The notes beneath the pieces were generated by a model. That model worked only from the letters and a program-made list of their open reading frames with translations. It did no database searches and had not been told where the DNA came from. A DNA stretch of 64,000 bases from an uncultured Bacteroidales bacterium. Its GTDB lineage: Bacteria > Bacteroidota > Bacteroidia > Bacteroidales > F082. Positions 7,744 to 18,008 of this stretch are shown piece after piece. The stretch is taken from NCBI GenBank assembly GCA_946405575.1, contig CAMJHP010000002.1, forward strand, positions 62,001 to 126,000. Reading direction: 5' to 3'. Position 1 is the stretch's first letter, and every line of letters begins with the position of its first letter. The translations under genes were made by a program, and so were the position numbers.

Positions 7744-7877
7744 AATTCATAAAAAATGCGAATATCAGAGAAAAATTTCAGCAAGGGAACTCAAAAAATG
7801 TGTCAAAAACATTGCGATTTAGCAAAATTGATGTATTTTTGCATGAAATTTTCCTCCAAATTCATAAAAATTGCGAA
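7744..7877 (+). promoter_or_regulatory. Candidate AbiE operator: two 19-bp direct repeats flanking the promoter
   Basis: AATTCATAAAAAATGCGAA (7744-7762) and AATTCATAAAAATTGCGAA (7859-7877), 18/19 identical, either side of a TATTTTTG promoter-like box and just before the ATG at 7879. Confidence 0.5.
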
Positions 7878-7878
7878 A

Positions 7879-8640
7879 ATGGCATCAAAAATACAGCAAA
7901 TAATGGAGTTGGTTCCCCACGATTCGGTCTTGCTCGGTTCATGGCTCTCCGAACATGGGTTGAATGCCCAAGGCCAGTATGCCTACATGAAAAGCGGTTG
8001 GCTTACCCGGATAACAAAGGGGGTGTATAAAATGAAAGGTGCTACACCGTCTCTCATGGCAATTATATCTTCCTACAACACCCAACTCGACAAGCATTGC
8101 ATCGTTGGAGCCTTCACGGCTTTGCAACTGCGCGGCTATGCACATTATCTGCCGATGGGAAAACCCAAGGCATATCTTTTTACTGACAGGAAAAACAAGC
8201 TGCCCTCGTGGATAGTGAACGGCGATTGGGACATGTCGGTGAAGTACATGACCACTTCCTTCCTCGGCGAGGGTTTGTTGGGTGTCGAATCCATGACCAT
8301 CGAACAATTTGACTTATTAGTGTCGTCGCCCGAGCGTGCCATATTGGAGTGTTTGTACCTGTCTGAGTCCGCTTCTTCATTGCTCGATGTCTATTACATC
8401 ATGGAAGGCCTTACAACACTCCGTCCAAAACTGGTACAGACTTTATTGGAGTCATGCACTTCGCTGAAAGTCAAAAGGCTCTTTCTCTACATGACCGAGA
8501 AAGCCAACCATCCTTGGTACAAGGCACTGGATCTTGATCGTGTAAGCCTCGGAACTTCAAGGTTGATGGTCTCACCAACAGGAAAATACATAAGTAAGTA
8601 TAACATGACCATTCCAAAAGAACTTGCTGAATATGAATGA
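7879..8640 (+). CDS. abiEi: AbiEi-family type IV antitoxin / transcriptional regulator
   Basis: N-terminal winged-HTH-like region (GSWLSEHGLNAQGQYAYMKSGWLTRITKGVYK), overlaps a following nucleotidyltransferase gene as in AbiE operons. Confidence 0.85.
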   Translation: MASKIQQIMELVPHDSVLLGSWLSEHGLNAQGQYAYMKSGWLTRITKGVYKMKGATPSLMAIISSYNTQLDKHCIVGAFTALQLRGYAHYLPMGKPKAYLFTDRKNKLPSWIVNGDWDMSVKYMTTSFLGEGLLGVESMTIEQFDLLVSSPERAILECLYLSESASSLLDVYYIMEGLTTLRPKLVQTLLESCTSLKVKRLFLYMTEKANHPWYKALDLDRVSLGTSRLMVSPTGKYISKYNMTIPKELAEYE

Positions 8641-9553
8641 GAACAATTTAAACAGGCGTATCTACGCGCAGAAAGTGGAGTTGCTGCTTCGCCTCGTTCC
8701 TATTATAATGGATGAAGGTGTGTTCGCCGTTCATGGCGGATCGGCCATTAACCTGTTTCTGAAAAATCTGCCACGGTATTCCGTGGACATAGACTTAACC
8801 TATATACCGTTGGCAGACCGGGCCACAAGCATTGCCGACATCAATCTGCATTTGAAATCCATTTGCGAGAAGGCAAAACGGGCATTCAAAGGGATGCATA
8901 TAGTGCCAAAATTTGACACCTGCAAGTTGCTGTGTGAATATCAAGGTCGGCAAGTGAAGGTTGAGGTTAACCAAACAAAGAGAGGTATCGTTGGCGGTGA
9001 CGTACTTACCTTGCCTTTGAGTGATAAGGCGCAAAACGAGTTTTCCCTCTATTGCGAGGCCAAGATTGTACCGTTAACACTTCTGTATGGCGGAAAAATT
9101 GCAGCCGCCCTGTCGCGCCAGCATCCACGTGATTTGTTTGATGTGAAATATATGGACTTGCCATTAAGTGATTGCCGCGAAGGCTTGATCTTTTGTTTGC
9201 TTGGCAGCGACAGGCCGATACACGAGTCATTGGTGCCAAGCCTCATTGACCAACACGAAGCAATGGCCAATCAGTTTGATGGAATGACCGGCATTCCATT
9301 CACATACGATGAATTTGAAGCTACCCGCTCCAAATTGATTGACGATGTGAAAGCCATAATAACTGAAGCAGATAGGGAGTTTCTTGTCAGCTTTGAGTCT
9401 GGGCAACCTCAATGGGATGGCTATGAGTTTGAATACTTCAAAAATTATCCATCTGTTCAATGGAAGTTTCTCAACCTTCAAAAACTCGCCAAACAGAACC
9501 ATCAGAAACTAAACGAGGAAGCTGATAAGTTGCGTTGTATTTGGAATCAATAA
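8633..9553 (+). CDS. abiEii: AbiEii/AbiGii-family nucleotidyltransferase toxin
   Basis: VHGGSAINLFLKNLPRYSVDIDLTYIPL matches the GGxA..L....R.S.DIDL motif; coupled to AbiEi by ATGAATGA overlap. Confidence 0.9.
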   Translation: MNENNLNRRIYAQKVELLLRLVPIIMDEGVFAVHGGSAINLFLKNLPRYSVDIDLTYIPLADRATSIADINLHLKSICEKAKRAFKGMHIVPKFDTCKLLCEYQGRQVKVEVNQTKRGIVGGDVLTLPLSDKAQNEFSLYCEAKIVPLTLLYGGKIAAALSRQHPRDLFDVKYMDLPLSDCREGLIFCLLGSDRPIHESLVPSLIDQHEAMANQFDGMTGIPFTYDEFEATRSKLIDDVKAIITEADREFLVSFESGQPQWDGYEFEYFKNYPSVQWKFLNLQKLAKQNHQKLNEEADKLRCIWNQ

Positions 9554-9650: not shown

Positions 9651-10337
9651 TCAAGGCTTTATTTCCAATCTTTCAAAACTAATAATGAAATCCTCGCTAT
9701 TGTTAGCTAACCACATCAAATAACGAATGTCTTTGCCGGCTATCTGCTTTATGGTTTCTCCTTTGTATTTCCCAAAAGTAAGGACATCTTCGGGATATAG
9801 GGTCCTTATGTCCTTTTTCCTTTCTTCAATGACCTTGTCAACATCGAAGAAAAAATGCGAAGAGTTTTCATTCGCCCATTTTACCCAGCCCCAGTCACTA
9901 TGTATGACTTCAACCAATGTCTCTCCCTGGTGTTTCCCCTTTTCCAAAACATCATTGATGCCATAAACCTTGACTGGTTCAACCGTTGGTTCTCCAAGTA
10001 TATCCAGCAACACCCATGATCCGCATGCGGCACAAGGTATCTCTTGTGGTGTTGTATCATCAATCTTACACCAGCTTGCTTCACTGTCCTCCCATGCATT
10101 CGCCCTCTTTCCGTCCCTAAAGTAAAAACCATATGCGGTACCATACCTACCACCTTTCCCACCTGGTTTCACTTGATGCACCTCAACATATTGAGAATAA
10201 TACCAACTCGACACTCTTCCGTCCGGAAATCTTTGAGCCGTGAAAGGCAAGGCTCTTCCTATATTGTAATAGAGAGAGATTAAGCTGTTGCTTAATCCTT
10301 TCTGTTGTATAGCTTTTATTAGTTTTTCTTTTTCCAT
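9651..10337 (-). CDS. Hypothetical protein with two ExoX-C-terminal-like motifs
   Basis: DVLTFGKYKGETIKQIAGKDIRYLMWLANNS plus a second, related copy DVLEKGKHQGETLVEVIHSDWGWVKWANENS. Confidence 0.6.
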   Translation of the reverse strand: MEKEKLIKAIQQKGLSNSLISLYYNIGRALPFTAQRFPDGRVSSWYYSQYVEVHQVKPGGKGGRYGTAYGFYFRDGKRANAWEDSEASWCKIDDTTPQEIPCAACGSWVLLDILGEPTVEPVKVYGINDVLEKGKHQGETLVEVIHSDWGWVKWANENSSHFFFDVDKVIEERKKDIRTLYPEDVLTFGKYKGETIKQIAGKDIRYLMWLANNSEDFIISFERLEIKP

Positions 10338-10502: not shown

Positions 10503-11207
10503 TTATTTTTTTCCCATAAAGGTTGCAAATAGGTACTTGGCATAAGTCCACCCTCTTGTTTCTAATAACCGATAGCAGCACACCATCAACAGCACTTGAA
10601 GCACTAATGCAATGGACAAAACCCACCATGACAACCAACCATAGAAGATATTAACAATACCAATAATAATTATGAAAAGAATACTCCAAACGCTTGCACC
10701 AAGATAATTACGACAGAAACCAAACTCAATGTTGTACTGTCTTAAAATCTCATCACCACGACAATTTTGCCTAATTTGGGAAACAGCCTCAATAATAACC
10801 TTTTGGGCCATGCCTATGTCTGCATTTTCCTCCTCTTGCGTAGGAAGTTTTATACCGAAAGTCGCCTTTACCTTGGCAGCAATCTGCTTGTGATACGCTG
10901 GTGAGATAACAGCATTCTGCCAAAGCAGCATTTTAGTGGTAGGCATCTCTGTCTCGTCCTTTTTGAACAGCGGATACTGAAATAGCCACTTCGAGGTCTC
11001 CTTAAACAACTCACTTACCAAATAGCCCACGGACACACTTACCAACGCAGTACCACCAATCAGACACAATATCCACTTTACGTCACCTATCAGTGTCTGA
11101 TACTGAGGAAACCACTTCCCCATGCACATTGCCAGCAATATGCACGTGGGGAACATTCCCAAAACAGCCGGATAGATCCTTGCTATTCTAATGTATTTAT
11201 CCATCAT
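10503..11207 (-). CDS. 4-TM membrane protein, paralogue of 13993..14733 (S-4TM-like architecture)
   Basis: Two N-terminal and two C-terminal hydrophobic helices around a soluble region with MPTTKMLLWQNAVIS...FGFCRNYLG, shared with the other copy. Confidence 0.7.
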   Translation of the reverse strand: MMDKYIRIARIYPAVLGMFPTCILLAMCMGKWFPQYQTLIGDVKWILCLIGGTALVSVSVGYLVSELFKETSKWLFQYPLFKKDETEMPTTKMLLWQNAVISPAYHKQIAAKVKATFGIKLPTQEEENADIGMAQKVIIEAVSQIRQNCRGDEILRQYNIEFGFCRNYLGASVWSILFIIIIGIVNIFYGWLSWWVLSIALVLQVLLMVCCYRLLETRGWTYAKYLFATFMGKK

Positions 11208-11211
11208 TTGT

Positions 11212-12108
11212 TTAGTTTTCCATTATGCTTCCTAAATAATGCATGCCTGAATGATGCCCATGGCTCAAATTTATCACCATTCCATCTCTCTTGTTATATC
11301 CCGACTCCGATACAAAAATATCCAAATAGTCACCGTTTGTCTCAAACAAGATATCCCCAGCAGTATTCTGTGTTATAGTATTCTGACCGCAGTAATAATC
11401 CAGTTCATCACTAGGTGCTTCACCAACAACGACTAACTTCGGCGTCAGCTTATCCATTAGCGACGATGGGATATGACCACTCTTTCTACCATGATGCGGT
11501 GCGAACACTATGGTAACATGCCCATTGTTTACCTCTCTGTCAAACTCCTCCTGCATATCAGTTTCCATATCACCCATCCAGAGAAATGAGAATTTACCAA
11601 CAAGATACTTAATTGCTGGTGAGATGTTGTTTGGACTGCCACCTTCGGCAGCGGTTTTCAGAGCCTCGTTGTATTTCTCGTTATCTGTAATTGGCCAAAG
11701 GCAATTCAATCCAGATGATTTACGTTCATCATCATCCTCATTCATCCACTTGCGCTTGCATCCTTTTTTTAGTGCAAAACTCTTCTTGCTATCATTACGG
11801 AGTTCCTTATATCTCTTGAAATCATCCGTTTCTGTACCTTTCTTGGTCGTATTGTTGTCAACACGATAGAAGTTTAAAATATTGAACTTATCGTCGTAGT
11901 CCACCAACCCACCGATGTGATCATCATCAGGATGGGTAGAGATGAAACGCTGGATTCCTTTACCGGATGATTCCGATTCTATCTCGTCTAAAATATCATC
12001 CTTTGCGTCGTCAGTTAAATAACAGTCGATTGTCGTGAAATTGTCTGAATTGTGGTTGATGTAGAACATGTCTCCATTGCCAACCGAAAAGCTTTTTACT
12101 TTACTCAT
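11212..12108 (-). CDS. Metallo-beta-lactamase-fold hydrolase (ComEC/Rec2-like)
   Basis: ISTHPDDDHIGG, LWMGDME and FAPHHGRKSG metal-binding motifs. Confidence 0.88.
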   Translation of the reverse strand: MSKVKSFSVGNGDMFYINHNSDNFTTIDCYLTDDAKDDILDEIESESSGKGIQRFISTHPDDDHIGGLVDYDDKFNILNFYRVDNNTTKKGTETDDFKRYKELRNDSKKSFALKKGCKRKWMNEDDDERKSSGLNCLWPITDNEKYNEALKTAAEGGSPNNISPAIKYLVGKFSFLWMGDMETDMQEEFDREVNNGHVTIVFAPHHGRKSGHIPSSLMDKLTPKLVVVGEAPSDELDYYCGQNTITQNTAGDILFETNGDYLDIFVSESGYNKRDGMVINLSHGHHSGMHYLGSIMEN

Positions 12109-12432
12109 TATTTTTTTATTTTTATATTCTATCTTCGATTTGTGCAAATTATGCGCCAAAATCAAGAAAGAAATATGAAATAATTGAAATTTTAGTTGTA
12201 AAAGTGGTATATAATGCCCTTATTATCAAAGTAAATCAGGTACATAGGGTAATCTTTGACAGCACTTGACTGACATGACTTACACAGTCTGACACAACGA
12301 GCAACCTTCCTGTCAATTTGACACAAAATGCCCGAATTTCGTCAATAAAATCTAATATTATATGTAAAACAATCTCTTATTCGGGATTTTTTGCTACCTT
12401 TGCATCCGAATAAAACCTACATATACATTAAT

Positions 12433-13728
12433 ATGGTTATCGAATTACGAATCAAGAACTTCCTATCATTCAAAGAGGAAACCGTTCTAAGCTTTGAGGC
12501 CTCAAAAGACACGTTCAAGGAGGATTCTCTATTGGTCACAATGGCAGACGGAACCCGTCTCACCCGCATAGCAATAATATATGGTGCCAATGCAAGCGGC
12601 AAATCTAACCTCCTTGCAGCTTTCGAATATCTTTTTTGGTTTTGGAAACGGAAAACCGAAGACCAGGATGCACTCACAGGGGTAGAGCCTTTCGCATTAG
12701 ATAGTGATACGCCATCCCAACCTACAGAGTTTGAACTCAAGCTCTACGTGAACGACAAAAAGTATGTCTACCAGCTTAGTTTGACAAATCAAACCGTCCT
12801 ATACGAAAAGTTATTTGTTTACAACAGCAACCAGCCCTCCCTGCTCATGCAGCGTGAATTAGTTGATGGCATCACATCCTTGAAATTCAACCCATCGCTT
12901 ATCAAAGTACCAGTTGCTGCAAAAGATGAATTGACTGCAAAATGCCTAAAAAACATGTCATTCTTTGCAGCACGAAAATCAGTTAATTGCAATCTTGGCG
13001 AGATTGACGATGTGAGAGATTGGCTGATCAACCACACACTGCCTGTTATCGAATTAGGACAAAACATGTTCCCGTATGCAGAAAGAAAAATGTTTGAAAG
13101 CCCTAACACAAAGCAACATCTATTAGAATTCAGTCATAACATTGGCCTCGACATTGAGGATATGACGGTTGAAAAGGATTATATGCCAATAACACCAGAG
13201 ATGATTCAGTTCATGCAGGCATCTGGGCAACTGTCAGAAGAAAACCTCAATAAGCTGAATAAAGACCCCAGAATGCAAGCGGGATTCAAGACCGACTTTT
13301 TGGTTTCAGTAATTAATACAAAAGGGAAGGAATTCTATACTTTACCAAAATCATCGCAAAGTGAAGGTACACTAAGATCAATGGGGGTCGAGACCGCACT
13401 CTATGTCGCAGAACAAAACAACAAGTTGCTACCTATCGATGAGATAGAAACATCCATGCATCCATTATTATTAAAGTATATGATAAAGAGTTTTTTGAAA
13501 GCGCCATCAAAAAGCCAACTGCTGCTTACAACTCATTACGATCCTCTTTTCACCGCTGCAGACGAGTATTTACGTAAAGACAGCTTCTGGCTGATGGATA
13601 AGCGTGAAGATGGTAATTCAGTACTTTACCCACTTGTTTCAAAAAATGGGGTCAATAAAATGCGATCGCTTCACCGAGCATACTTAAACAACAAGCTTGG
13701 AGCTCTTCCTCAAATAACAAACATATAA
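12433..13728 (+). CDS. AAA15-family / OLD-like ATPase (RloA/AbiL-like)
   Basis: IKNFLSFKEETVLSF N-terminus, Walker A YGANASGKSN, LPIDEIETSMHP Walker B, LLTTHYDP. Confidence 0.88.
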   Translation: MVIELRIKNFLSFKEETVLSFEASKDTFKEDSLLVTMADGTRLTRIAIIYGANASGKSNLLAAFEYLFWFWKRKTEDQDALTGVEPFALDSDTPSQPTEFELKLYVNDKKYVYQLSLTNQTVLYEKLFVYNSNQPSLLMQRELVDGITSLKFNPSLIKVPVAAKDELTAKCLKNMSFFAARKSVNCNLGEIDDVRDWLINHTLPVIELGQNMFPYAERKMFESPNTKQHLLEFSHNIGLDIEDMTVEKDYMPITPEMIQFMQASGQLSEENLNKLNKDPRMQAGFKTDFLVSVINTKGKEFYTLPKSSQSEGTLRSMGVETALYVAEQNNKLLPIDEIETSMHPLLLKYMIKSFLKAPSKSQLLLTTHYDPLFTAADEYLRKDSFWLMDKREDGNSVLYPLVSKNGVNKMRSLHRAYLNNKLGALPQITNI

Positions 13729-13992: not shown

Positions 13993-14733
13993 ATGATTGA
14001 AAAAGTTGAGAAGAAACTAAAAATGGACGATTACGACCTTGAGGCTGTCTTTACGCCGACAGTCATAAACCTTTTAATTGCCGCATTCTTTACTATCTGT
14101 ACACTCAAAGACACGCTACTGACAGCGGAATCAACCATTTGGTGGCAGACCGTTGCAGTCATTGTCGCCCCTATTGCCGTGGAGGTGATATTGTTCAGGT
14201 TCTTCATGCAAGCATTTCGCGAGTCATCCAAACTGTTTGAGTCACTCCTTTACCGAAAAGATCGACTCAACTTCCCCACCACCTCAATGCTGTTACTTGG
14301 CGATAATAGCATCAGTCAGCTACAAAAGAAACGCATACGACAAGTGCTCAAGTCAAAATATAATATCAACCTTCTCTCCAAAACTAAAGAAGAAGCCAAT
14401 GAGATGGAAGCCCGTAGAACGGCAAAGGATGCTGTTGCGCTAATACGCAAAGAAGTAGCCGACAGCGGCGATACCATGACACGCCGCAAACTGAAACGCT
14501 ATGGCACATTCCGCAACTTTCTTGGCGGTGCCTTGTATTGCCTCCCCGTTTGTCTCGCATGCTGGATTGTTAGCCTCTGTCTCAATGGCTCCAGTGTATT
14601 TCCCCTATCAATTGCTTTAACCATATACATAGTGTATTCTTTAGTGGATTTCTTTCTAGTCAAGAGCACCGCTGTCGAATATGCCGAAAGTCTTATAACA
14701 ACCTTTGATAAAAACAATTACGATGAAGCATAG
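13993..14733 (+). CDS. 4-TM membrane protein, first gene of the E2-E1-JAB operon
   Basis: TM helices at both ends; soluble FPTTSMLLLGDNSIS...KLKRYGTFRNFLGG region related to 10503..11207. Confidence 0.7.
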   Translation: MIEKVEKKLKMDDYDLEAVFTPTVINLLIAAFFTICTLKDTLLTAESTIWWQTVAVIVAPIAVEVILFRFFMQAFRESSKLFESLLYRKDRLNFPTTSMLLLGDNSISQLQKKRIRQVLKSKYNINLLSKTKEEANEMEARRTAKDAVALIRKEVADSGDTMTRRKLKRYGTFRNFLGGALYCLPVCLACWIVSLCLNGSSVFPLSIALTIYIVYSLVDFFLVKSTAVEYAESLITTFDKNNYDEA

Positions 14734-14734
14734 T

Positions 14735-15865
14735 ATGAAATTTTACCCCGTAGGCAACGGGGATTGCTGCCTTGTAAACATCGGCGGCCCAACTAAGAAA
14801 ATGATGTTCGACTGTAATTTCCGCCAAAAGGCTGAAAACGAGGATGACGAAATGTTTGATGTTTTAGACGATCTGATCAACCATGAACTCACCAAAAAAT
14901 ACGGACTACCTTTTTTGGATGCATTCCTGCTTACCCATCCTGACCAGGACCACTGCCGTGGCTTTGGTGACAAGTTCTTCCTTGGAGACCCTGACTCCAT
15001 CAACGATAGCGACAAGAAAAAAGGAAAAATTCTCATCGGCGAGCTTTGGTACTCACCTCGTGTTTTTGAAGAATACACCATCGACTTAGGCGATGATGCC
15101 AAAGCATTCAAAAAAGAGGCGGCACGACGGATGGAACTCTACAAGTCCAACAAAAAGAAAGCCGACCGCGAAGGCAACCGTATCCGCATTATAGGATGGT
15201 CGGACAACAAAGATCTTGAAGGTCTCGAAGACCGCATCACGGTGCCTGGAAACTTGATTTCAGAAGTGAACGGCTCTAAATGCAATTACTTCGAAATGTT
15301 TATCCACGCTCCATTCAAGAAAGATATCGAGAACGCCGACCGCAATGAAACCAGCATTGTTTCCCAACTAAGATTCAAATCTGATAAAAAGGATACTCCT
15401 ATTGCTCGGGCTTTCCTCGCTGGTGATGCCGAATGGCACGTATGGGACACCATCATGACTGTGAACAAGAATGATGATTTTTTGAAATGGGACTTATTGG
15501 AGGCGCCTCACCATTGTAGCTATACCTTCTTTGCCGATGACAGAGAAGACGAGCCCAATCAAGCCTCACTTGATTTCTTGGACAAGAGAGAAGAAGGGGC
15601 ATTTGTGGTCTCATCCTCAAAGGTTATCAAGCAGAATTCCGACAACCCACCCTGCCAAAAAGCAAAGAACCGCTATGTGGAGCGAGTTGGTAAAGACAAT
15701 TTCTTCTGCACTAGTGGCGACTCGGAAGATGAGGCCGACAAACCTCTAGTATTTGTCATAGAAGACGGAGCCATCGCCCTTTCTGATGACAAGAAGAAAG
15801 AATCCGACTCAAAGGCCACAATTGCCAAAGAAACGAAACCCCATTATTATGGACAACGTTTCTGA
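14735..15865 (+). CDS. Metallo-beta-lactamase-fold hydrolase with charged C-terminal tail
   Basis: LLTHPDQDHCRGFGD, FLAGDAEW, LEAPHHCSYTFF motifs; tail DDKKKESDSKATIAKETKPHYYGQRF. Confidence 0.88.
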   Translation: MKFYPVGNGDCCLVNIGGPTKKMMFDCNFRQKAENEDDEMFDVLDDLINHELTKKYGLPFLDAFLLTHPDQDHCRGFGDKFFLGDPDSINDSDKKKGKILIGELWYSPRVFEEYTIDLGDDAKAFKKEAARRMELYKSNKKKADREGNRIRIIGWSDNKDLEGLEDRITVPGNLISEVNGSKCNYFEMFIHAPFKKDIENADRNETSIVSQLRFKSDKKDTPIARAFLAGDAEWHVWDTIMTVNKNDDFLKWDLLEAPHHCSYTFFADDREDEPNQASLDFLDKREEGAFVVSSSKVIKQNSDNPPCQKAKNRYVERVGKDNFFCTSGDSEDEADKPLVFVIEDGAIALSDDKKKESDSKATIAKETKPHYYGQRF

Positions 15866-18008
15866 ACAATACTCATGCATAGATAAAACCGCACTCGGAG
15901 CTTTGGCCAAGGAGCTAGATTCCTTGGCCGAAATCTTCGAGAACAGTTATCGCATAGTGGAGTTGGATGGCAACACCCTTGGTGTTTGCGGTGACATTCT
16001 TACCTACGCCAACACAAAGTCACTTCTCCACCGCGTCGAGCCCATGGTGATTGGTGTCAGTAAAACCAATTGGCAAACCGAAACACCTTTTGTTTTTCCT
16101 GACAGAACAAACTTCCCTTTTGAAAAATTCCCGCATGTCAACTATAAGACCAAAAGTCTTCCATCCACACTCTGCTTGGCTCGCGAAAATATAGACGACT
16201 GGTATGCCGAACACACACTGAAAGACTACGTGAATCTGGTGGCTCAATGGCTGCGTGACGCAGCCAAAGGCAAATTAATGAAACTGAACGAAAACGACGA
16301 GTTTGAGCCCCAGCGCAACCACAAAGCGGACTGCCTCCTGATGCGCATCACCTATATGGACCCCATATTAGACTATAAGGAAGAATCCGAATGCTATTTT
16401 TATTCCATTCATGTCAGCGAGGAGATGTCCAAAATTGCATACGGCAACGAACAGCACAAAAAACTAACCGAAAACGCTGTAGGAGTGCGTCTATTTGCCG
16501 GCAAAGACCATGTGGACGACACTTGGTACACCCACTATCCCACTACACTTGGTGAACTCTACCAGTTTATTCAAGACAAGAGTTACCCCTTTGAACTCAA
16601 TAACCTTAAGTCAGTTTTAGACTCAACCAAGAAATATGTTTATTTTCAACTCGCTTTGCACCGACCAAAAAAGATTATAGGCAAAAACACTCGCATCAAT
16701 TATCTTTGCTTCCGTGCCAACGCACAAGATGTAATTAACGACAACACAAACGCACTTGTTGAAGAAATATGCATTATTGATTTTACCGATTATCTCACCG
16801 CACATTATATTTCCGAAACTCCTAGTTCTATCTGGACCAAGCAGATTACCTTATTGGGATGTGGTGCTGTGGGAAGCAAAATTGCCTACCATCTCCACCG
16901 CAGCGGCTTATACAACTTTGACTTAATTGACAGTGACCATTTCCTCCCCCACAATGTTTGCCGTCATGCCTTGGCAGCCTACTATCCTGGCAAATCTTAT
17001 AAAAACAAGGCCGACGCTTTGAAAAATTCTCTTATTGAAATGTTTCACGGGATGCCCCATGAAGGTATCAAAGCATTTGACCACGATGCACTTACTTATC
17101 TTCAGGCCAAAGACCTCAATGAAATTGACCTTATCATTGATGCCACAGCCTCAGTAAGAGTGATGTATGGCATCGACAGTGCAATGCTACCCGAGAAGAC
17201 CCGCGTAGTGAGGGTAGCCCTATCAGAAGGCGGCGACGTAGGAGTGACCTACTTGAACATTGACAATACGCAACCCCTTGCCGACTACTATATGGAGATT
17301 CTTCGTGCTGCCCTTAGAGATGAGCAGATATACAGATGGCTTTCAAACGAAAAAAAGAACTCTACCGAAAATATCCGCATAGGAGAGGGGTGCCATTCGA
17401 ATACCATGCGCATAAGCGACGACACCATTTCTGCCCATGCTGCCCTGATGTCATCGGCCATACGCCATATATATGAGGGTAAACAGACGAACCGCATTCT
17501 TCTTTCCTTTGCACATCGTGATTTTCCAGGCAGCATGCAGACCTGCGTATTACCCGTCAACAGATATATTCAGTTCACGTGTGCCAACGCTAATAAATGG
17601 CAAGTGCGTATTCCTGAAGATTTGCTCAAAGAAATCCGCATCAAGACCAAAGCAAAGGGCAAGAACGAAACTGGAGGTTATCTCTTTGGCCACATCGATC
17701 ACAAACGTAAGACCATTTATGCTCTATCTCATTTCATGCCCACTGATTCACATGGTTCGAAAAACGGTTTCAAATTAGGCACCAGTGGTCTAAAAGACCA
17801 CAAAAAGTTCATTGCCCTACGCTGCATCGGACAGATGGAATACATCGGCGACTGGCATTCACATCCGGAAACCACTCTTGATATGTCGGCCATCGATATT
17901 GCCACATGTCATGAAAAAGTCGTTCACGAACTACCTCATGGCATAGGTGTTTGTGTTATTACAAAGGCAACCCAAACACAGTTTTTCCTAATTAGCCCAC
18001 AAGAATAA
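15849..18008 (+). CDS. E2-like + ThiF/E1-like + JAB/JAMM fusion protein
   Basis: N-terminal E2-like FPHVNYKTKSLPSTLCLARENIDDWYAEHTLKDYVNLVAQWLRDAA; E1 nucleotide-binding LLGCGAVGSKIAYHLHRSGLYNFDLIDSDHFLPHNVCRH; JAMM GDWHSHPETTLDMSAID (HxHx7Sx2D). Start overlaps the MBL stop by 17 nt. Confidence 0.9.
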   Translation: MDNVSEQYSCIDKTALGALAKELDSLAEIFENSYRIVELDGNTLGVCGDILTYANTKSLLHRVEPMVIGVSKTNWQTETPFVFPDRTNFPFEKFPHVNYKTKSLPSTLCLARENIDDWYAEHTLKDYVNLVAQWLRDAAKGKLMKLNENDEFEPQRNHKADCLLMRITYMDPILDYKEESECYFYSIHVSEEMSKIAYGNEQHKKLTENAVGVRLFAGKDHVDDTWYTHYPTTLGELYQFIQDKSYPFELNNLKSVLDSTKKYVYFQLALHRPKKIIGKNTRINYLCFRANAQDVINDNTNALVEEICIIDFTDYLTAHYISETPSSIWTKQITLLGCGAVGSKIAYHLHRSGLYNFDLIDSDHFLPHNVCRHALAAYYPGKSYKNKADALKNSLIEMFHGMPHEGIKAFDHDALTYLQAKDLNEIDLIIDATASVRVMYGIDSAMLPEKTRVVRVALSEGGDVGVTYLNIDNTQPLADYYMEILRAALRDEQIYRWLSNEKKNSTENIRIGEGCHSNTMRISDDTISAHAALMSSAIRHIYEGKQTNRILLSFAHRDFPGSMQTCVLPVNRYIQFTCANANKWQVRIPEDLLKEIRIKTKAKGKNETGGYLFGHIDHKRKTIYALSHFMPTDSHGSKNGFKLGTSGLKDHKKFIALRCIGQMEYIGDWHSHPETTLDMSAIDIATCHEKVVHELPHGIGVCVITKATQTQFFLISPQE

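Follow-up and report, generated by a model that had tools for sequence, protein, structure and literature searches.

Iyer et al. (2006) described an operon type, 6a, in which a triple fusion of E2, E1 and JAB domains is encoded beside a specialised metallo-β-lactamase (MBL). In the type II cyclic oligonucleotide-based antiphage signalling systems (CBASS), conjugation via the C-terminal residue of the cyclase has been demonstrated, Cap3 cleaves after that residue, and a C-terminal Gly/Ala signature is confined to the cGAS/DncV-like nucleotidyltransferases (CD-NTases) of operons with Cap2/Cap3 (Jenson 2023, PMC10097602); in some CBASS operons the killing effector is the patatin-type CapV (PMC10097602). 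Bil systems use a separate ubiquitin-like protein (PMC11354881). Here we describe an operon at positions 13993-18008 of a 64,000-nucleotide stretch (the window) of contig CAMJHP010000002.1 from an uncultured Bacteroidales bacterium, whose draft genome comprises 3.1 Mb. Three genes on the same strand, in overlapping frames, encode a protein with four transmembrane (TM) segments (4-TM protein, here TM1), an MBL-fold hydrolase and a single-chain E2-E1-JAB protein (Table 1). Since the last two exceed the cutoffs of the NCBIfam equivalog models named "anti-phage 6A-MBL system" (NF058524, "6A-MBL_enzyme", 353.7 bits against 220; NF058523, "6A-MBL_cap2_3", 411.5 bits against 320) and since type 6a was described by Iyer et al., we conclude that the operon is a 6A-MBL system in a 4-TM form and that its core is already known. 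This rules out the distinct, undescribed architecture that a preliminary description, made from the sequence alone, had proposed, and the MBL partner that it considered new belongs to type 6a as well; for the 4-TM partner, no description was found in the libraries searched.

The genes overlap by 11 nt (TM1/MBL) and 17 nt (MBL/E2-E1-JAB). As the start of the MBL gene we prefer the ATG at 14723 over the listed upstream TTG at 14705, because the relatives begin with MKHSIKF. The gene order was found again in the homologous loci L018 (94-97% identity) and L019 and L021 (56-72%) and on a distant viral contig, L065 (about 27%), from which we conclude that the three-gene set is far above chance. The closest copy, 94% identical in the E2-E1-JAB protein, stems from a red-deer Bacteroidales assembly, more distant ones from other Bacteroidales and Bacteroides assemblies.

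Within the third protein, the Pfam domains Prok-E2_A (residues 62-147), ThiF (330-460) and Prok-JAB (589-703) follow each other in one polypeptide, each above its gathering cutoff. Across 14 aligned homologues, the most distant of them 19% identical, the E2 residues Cys109 (in SLPSTLCLAR) and His96, the E1 motif GxGxxG with R351, D361, K387, D431 and C515, and the JAMM residues E607, H670, H672, S680 and D683 are invariant. The first PDB match of the family profile is Cap2 (4e-23). An AlphaFold2 model (mean pLDDT 70.8, E2 part of modest confidence) aligns with the Cap2-CdnD02 complex (7to3) over 647 columns (3.3e-17), and its JAB part with Cap3 bound to a CD-NTase (9ild) at a template modelling score of 0.81 to the target. 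The global score against full Cap2 is low (0.26-0.32), which together with the modest E2 confidence means that the relative placement of the domains in the model is not fixed. The protein is a fused Cap2-Cap3.

The MBL comprises 380 aa, and D233 and H261 are likewise invariant in 27 homologues, as are the metal ligands given in Table 1. It resembles the MBL domain of ComEC in the HxDxDH motif and in profile (PDB entry 9ic4, 3.5e-8); unlike ComEC, it is free-standing with a flexible tail, has neither TM segments nor a fused ComEC membrane channel, and is partnered by an unrelated 4-TM protein. These results bear out the preliminary description in its reading of three tightly coupled genes, of an E2-like segment with a candidate Cys, a ThiF/E1 domain and an intact JAMM motif fused in one chain, of a ComEC-like MBL and of a relation to Cap2/Cap3; the defence role that it suggested agrees with the anti-phage name of the NCBIfam models, that is, by model name.

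Compared with the described 6A-MBL system, the window operon has the same E2, E1 and JAB order in one chain beside a specialised MBL, with E2 Cys, E1 Cys and JAMM residues intact; what differs is the 4-TM gene 5' of the MBL, which is not named in type 6a, NCBIfam or PADLOC. With type II CBASS it shares homologous E1-E2 and JAB enzymes, a variable, putatively membrane-directed effector, including patatin, and perhaps the C-terminal Gly of the partner protein, whereas the MBL replaces the CD-NTase, the JAB domain is fused to E1-E2, the Gly often stands 1-4 residues from the end, and no cyclic-nucleotide sensor was seen. Among the operon genes and the 5' neighbours scanned there was no CD-NTase, the sole nucleotidyltransferase nearby being AbiEii (8633-9553). 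Bil and Bub systems likewise contain bacterial E1, E2 and JAB enzymes, but those of the window lie in one chain, and no match to a ubiquitin-like protein was found among the operon genes.

The C-terminal tail of the MBL suggests which protein is conjugated. All 32 MBLs linked to an E2-E1-JAB gene carry a Gly among their last five residues, in 13 of them exactly at the C-terminus, within variable, mostly Ala/Gly/Ser-rich tails (Gly contexts RAG, HG, YG, FG, QG). The corresponding rates are 24% (exactly terminal 4.7%) in 381 other proteins of the same loci, 30% (39/129) for upstream genes whose neighbour overlaps them or follows closely, and 4/16 (exactly terminal 2/16) in second or unlinked MBLs. 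For this enrichment the binomial value is 2e-20 and the Fisher value 3e-14, both overstating independence because the sequences are related, but identities within the set are mostly 24-40% and the Gly codons are mixed. A further MBL, that of L093, fits the pattern (...STPRAGRSIC). An origin of the Gly in a ribosome-binding site was ruled out, since the codons mix GGA, GGC, GGT and GGG and the closely spaced controls reach 30%. The pattern parallels type II CBASS, in which the C-terminal Gly of the cyclase is conjugated by Cap2, and by analogy the MBL is probably the conjugated protein.

The window tail ends in YYGQRF, whereas in L019 and L021 translation stops after YYG or FYG, at a TAA codon that is CAA in the window and in L018. 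This change, within 15848-15865, adds QRF beyond the tail Gly and is common to L018, so it has been stable over some divergence. In another locus, on a Runella plasmid, the charged tail of an MBL (L041:3089-4189) encoded next to a SEC-C protein has Gly as its very last residue (AKPWQRG), although no E2-E1-JAB gene lies in the 10 kb covered.

TM1 consists, by hydropathy, of two TM helices, a helical middle domain and two further TM helices, and its AlphaFold2 model is all helical (pLDDT 80.7). The family has a conserved YGxxRN motif and homologues in about 20 loci. TM1 could not be tied to a known fold: Pfam gave nothing above cutoff, the PDB had no match by sequence or by fold, and there was no match among the viral folds of BFVD and no PADLOC model. 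The gene lies directly 5' of the MBL gene in all three relatives with 5' context (L018, L019, L021) and in L065, 3' of E2-E1-JAB in L036, L039, L054, L066 and L093, and near the operon in L043, L047, L053 and L068. In a survey seeded by the 4-TM family only (Bacteroidota genomes, overlapping samples of 296, 398 and 295), there were 8 hits in 7 genomes. All 8 were at MBL loci, and 4 had E2-E1-JAB. MBL and 4-TM pairs lacking E2-E1-JAB are found on Runella and Bacillus cereus plasmids and in the window itself (10503-12108). The E2-E1-JAB gene has a patatin phospholipase as its companion in ten other loci, L053 holding both patatin and 4-TM, and another kind of 3-4-TM protein in L040, L046 and L049. 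By analogy to CBASS, the accessory position looks like a slot for exchangeable membrane-directed effectors, and the 4-TM protein is, as the preliminary description had supposed, a plausible candidate membrane effector. Next to the WYL gene that runs divergently from 6A-MBL operons of the E. coli type, small 3-TM proteins of 172-178 aa are encoded (L045:3469-3987, L072:2183-2719), possibly the effector of this apparently two-gene form.

Table 1 Features of the 6A-MBL operon and its neighbours (window coordinates).
Feature	Position	Strand	Evidence or remarks
Second 4-TM protein TM2, beside second MBL	10503-11207	-	25-31% identical to TM1
Second MBL, stand-alone type, no E2-E1-JAB partner	11212-12108	-	PADLOC PDC-M48B, 397.9 bits
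AAA_21 ATPase (AbiLi-like), 264 bp upstream of TM1	12433-13728	+	Pfam AAA_21, 109.7 bits; PADLOC AbiLi
4-TM protein TM1	13993-14733	+	246 aa; four hydrophobic segments
MBL-fold hydrolase (6A-MBL enzyme), ComEC-like	14723-15865	+	NCBIfam NF058524; PDB profile match; invariant metal ligands
HxDxDH metal-binding motif (HPDQDH) of the MBL	14936-14953	+	H70, D72, D74, H75 invariant in 27/27
MBL C-terminal tail ...TKPHYYGQRF (Gly codon 15851-15853)	15758-15862	+	Gly in last five residues of linked MBLs
Single-chain E2-E1-JAB protein (fused Cap2-Cap3)	15849-18008	+	719 aa; ATG at 15849; NCBIfam NF058523; fold match
E2-like domain (catalytic Cys109 at 16173-16175)	15885-16289	+	Pfam Prok-E2_A, 39 bits against 25
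E1/ThiF adenylation domain (catalytic Cys515 at 17391-17393)	16785-17528	+	Pfam ThiF, 46.8 bits
JAB/JAMM isopeptidase domain	17583-17957	+	Pfam Prok-JAB, 39.6 bits

The gene identities, the intact active sites, the tail pattern and the repeated occurrence of 4-TM proteins together with MBLs are established, and we consider it probable, if only modestly so, that the operon is a 4-TM form of the 6A-MBL anti-phage system in which a conjugation-regulated MBL is coupled to a membrane effector. The JAB domain would trim the MBL tail to expose the Gly, a step that would be needed in the window because QRF stands after it. The E1 domain would then adenylate the Gly and take it onto Cys515 and from there to Cys109 of the E2 domain, and the MBL, joined via its C-terminus to a target, may thereby be primed or localised, like the cyclase in type II CBASS; the JAB domain could also reverse the bond. 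On infection, the primed MBL would hydrolyse a phosphodiester substrate (nucleic acid or nucleotide), as suggested by its ComEC-like site, and this would trigger the 4-TM protein, leading to membrane damage and abortive infection. Each chemical step, as well as the target, the trigger and the killing of cells by the 4-TM protein, is our inference from the anatomy of the operon and its comparison with related loci.

Several points weigh against this reading. Its support comes from anatomy and comparative patterns, and the source for anti-phage activity of 6A-MBL is the NCBIfam model name. In some 60% of the MBLs, that of the window among them, 1-4 residues follow the Gly, unlike in CBASS, so that trimming must be assumed. 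In the window, L018, L019 and L021, the ATGGA with which the next gene starts overlaps the Tyr-Gly codons, and this overlap alone could conserve the Gly; it constrains the Gly in part in these four loci and does not explain it in the others. Moreover, the 4-TM gene is 5' in the window but 3' or divergent elsewhere, and in several operons (e.g. L038, L051, L060) an evident membrane effector is missing, in which case the MBL may be enough by itself.

In the main alternative, the MBL itself is the killing effector, a ComEC-like nuclease under conjugation control, with the 4-TM protein anchoring it to the membrane, sensing for it or inhibiting it. The intact HxDxDH site and the relation to ComEC, the use of MBLs in other defence systems (similarity to PADLOC LmuA, Avs1a and RTasMBL), the seemingly two-gene operons of E. 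coli and Klebsiella type and the pairing of 4-TM proteins with MBLs lacking E2-E1-JAB all favour it; nevertheless, we regard it as unlikely, since patatin, a known class of lipase effectors, fills the accessory place in ten loci, which fits an upstream role of the MBL. It appears less likely still that the E2-E1-JAB protein conjugates an unlinked ubiquitin-like or phage protein, with the tail Gly serving another purpose: Bil systems do employ a separate ubiquitin-like protein (PMC11354881), but no such gene was found in the operon, the Gly is present in every linked MBL while staying at background rate in other MBLs, and Cap2, the closest relative, takes the C-terminus of its operon partner. 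That the 4-TM gene stands outside the system, as part of an independent 4-TM and MBL unit that landed by the 6A-MBL operon, is very improbable, because, although such stand-alone pairs occur, the window itself having one at a distance of about 2 kb, TM1 overlaps the start of the 6A MBL with no second MBL between them, is kept in the three relatives with 5' context and on the distant viral contig, and has counterparts directly 3' of E2-E1-JAB in L036, L039, L054 and L093.

The nearby pair of second MBL and TM2 (10503-12165, minus strand) had been overlooked in the preliminary description, and like pairs accompany 6A operons in L039, L047, L068 and L092. This second MBL matches the PADLOC candidate PDC-M48; its 4-TM partner has no PDC-M48 model match, and the pair lacks E2-E1-JAB. 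AAA_21 ATPases adjoin the operon also in L019, L021 and L065. With only 22-25% identity to the window ATPase, and belonging to a common type of defence-island gene, they disfavour the ATPase as a fixed component, and its membership in the system is uncertain. An AbiEi/AbiEii type IV toxin-antitoxin pair (7756-9553, plus strand; Pfam AbiEi_3 and AbiEii) adjoins the MBL units and makes the region a small defence island. At 9651-10337 (minus strand), a 228-aa protein shows two stretches of an ExoX-like C-terminal domain repeat (PF20600), and no exonuclease domain was found in it. Genes for a Rep3 initiator and a MobA/VirD2 relaxase and the conjugative-transposon genes TraM and TraG lie at 29706-61256, which places the defence genes on a conjugative element or plasmid.

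Beyond the window, a tblastn search with the MBL matched 253 plasmid records, mostly of Klebsiella, Escherichia and Acinetobacter, and DNA similar to the MBL-WYL region of pSE11-2 is present in 34/5426 complete E. coli genomes; genes of WYL regulators often adjoin the 6A-MBL operon. Among Bacteroidota, 8/398 genomes hold an MBL over the NCBIfam cutoff, and viral contigs queried with the MBL alone gave no relatives. On 6A-MBL function, we found no literature beyond Iyer et al. (2006) and a mention in EMBO J 2026, nor did we find the publication behind the name of NF058523/NF058524, in which the 4-TM partner or the MBL tail may already be reported. Relative to the descriptions found, the recurring 4-TM partner and the conserved Gly tail of the MBL look new.

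We tentatively propose, as a possibility that falls short of probable, that the MBL itself is the ubiquitin-like modifier, conjugated by E2-E1-JAB through its C-terminal Gly as the cyclase is by Cap2, and drives a hitherto undescribed family of 4-TM effectors; this family would also occur with an MBL in a two-gene system free of conjugation, the conjugation cassette being a portable regulator on unrelated immune enzymes. As natural counterparts that lack conjugation, the stand-alone MBL and 4-TM pairs can be compared with the 6A-MBL operon, and the 4-TM family would represent a new class of membrane effectors. If the MBL is conjugated, bacterial ubiquitin-like conjugation would be a general regulator that can be attached to various immune enzymes via a short Gly tail, with no need for a ubiquitin fold.

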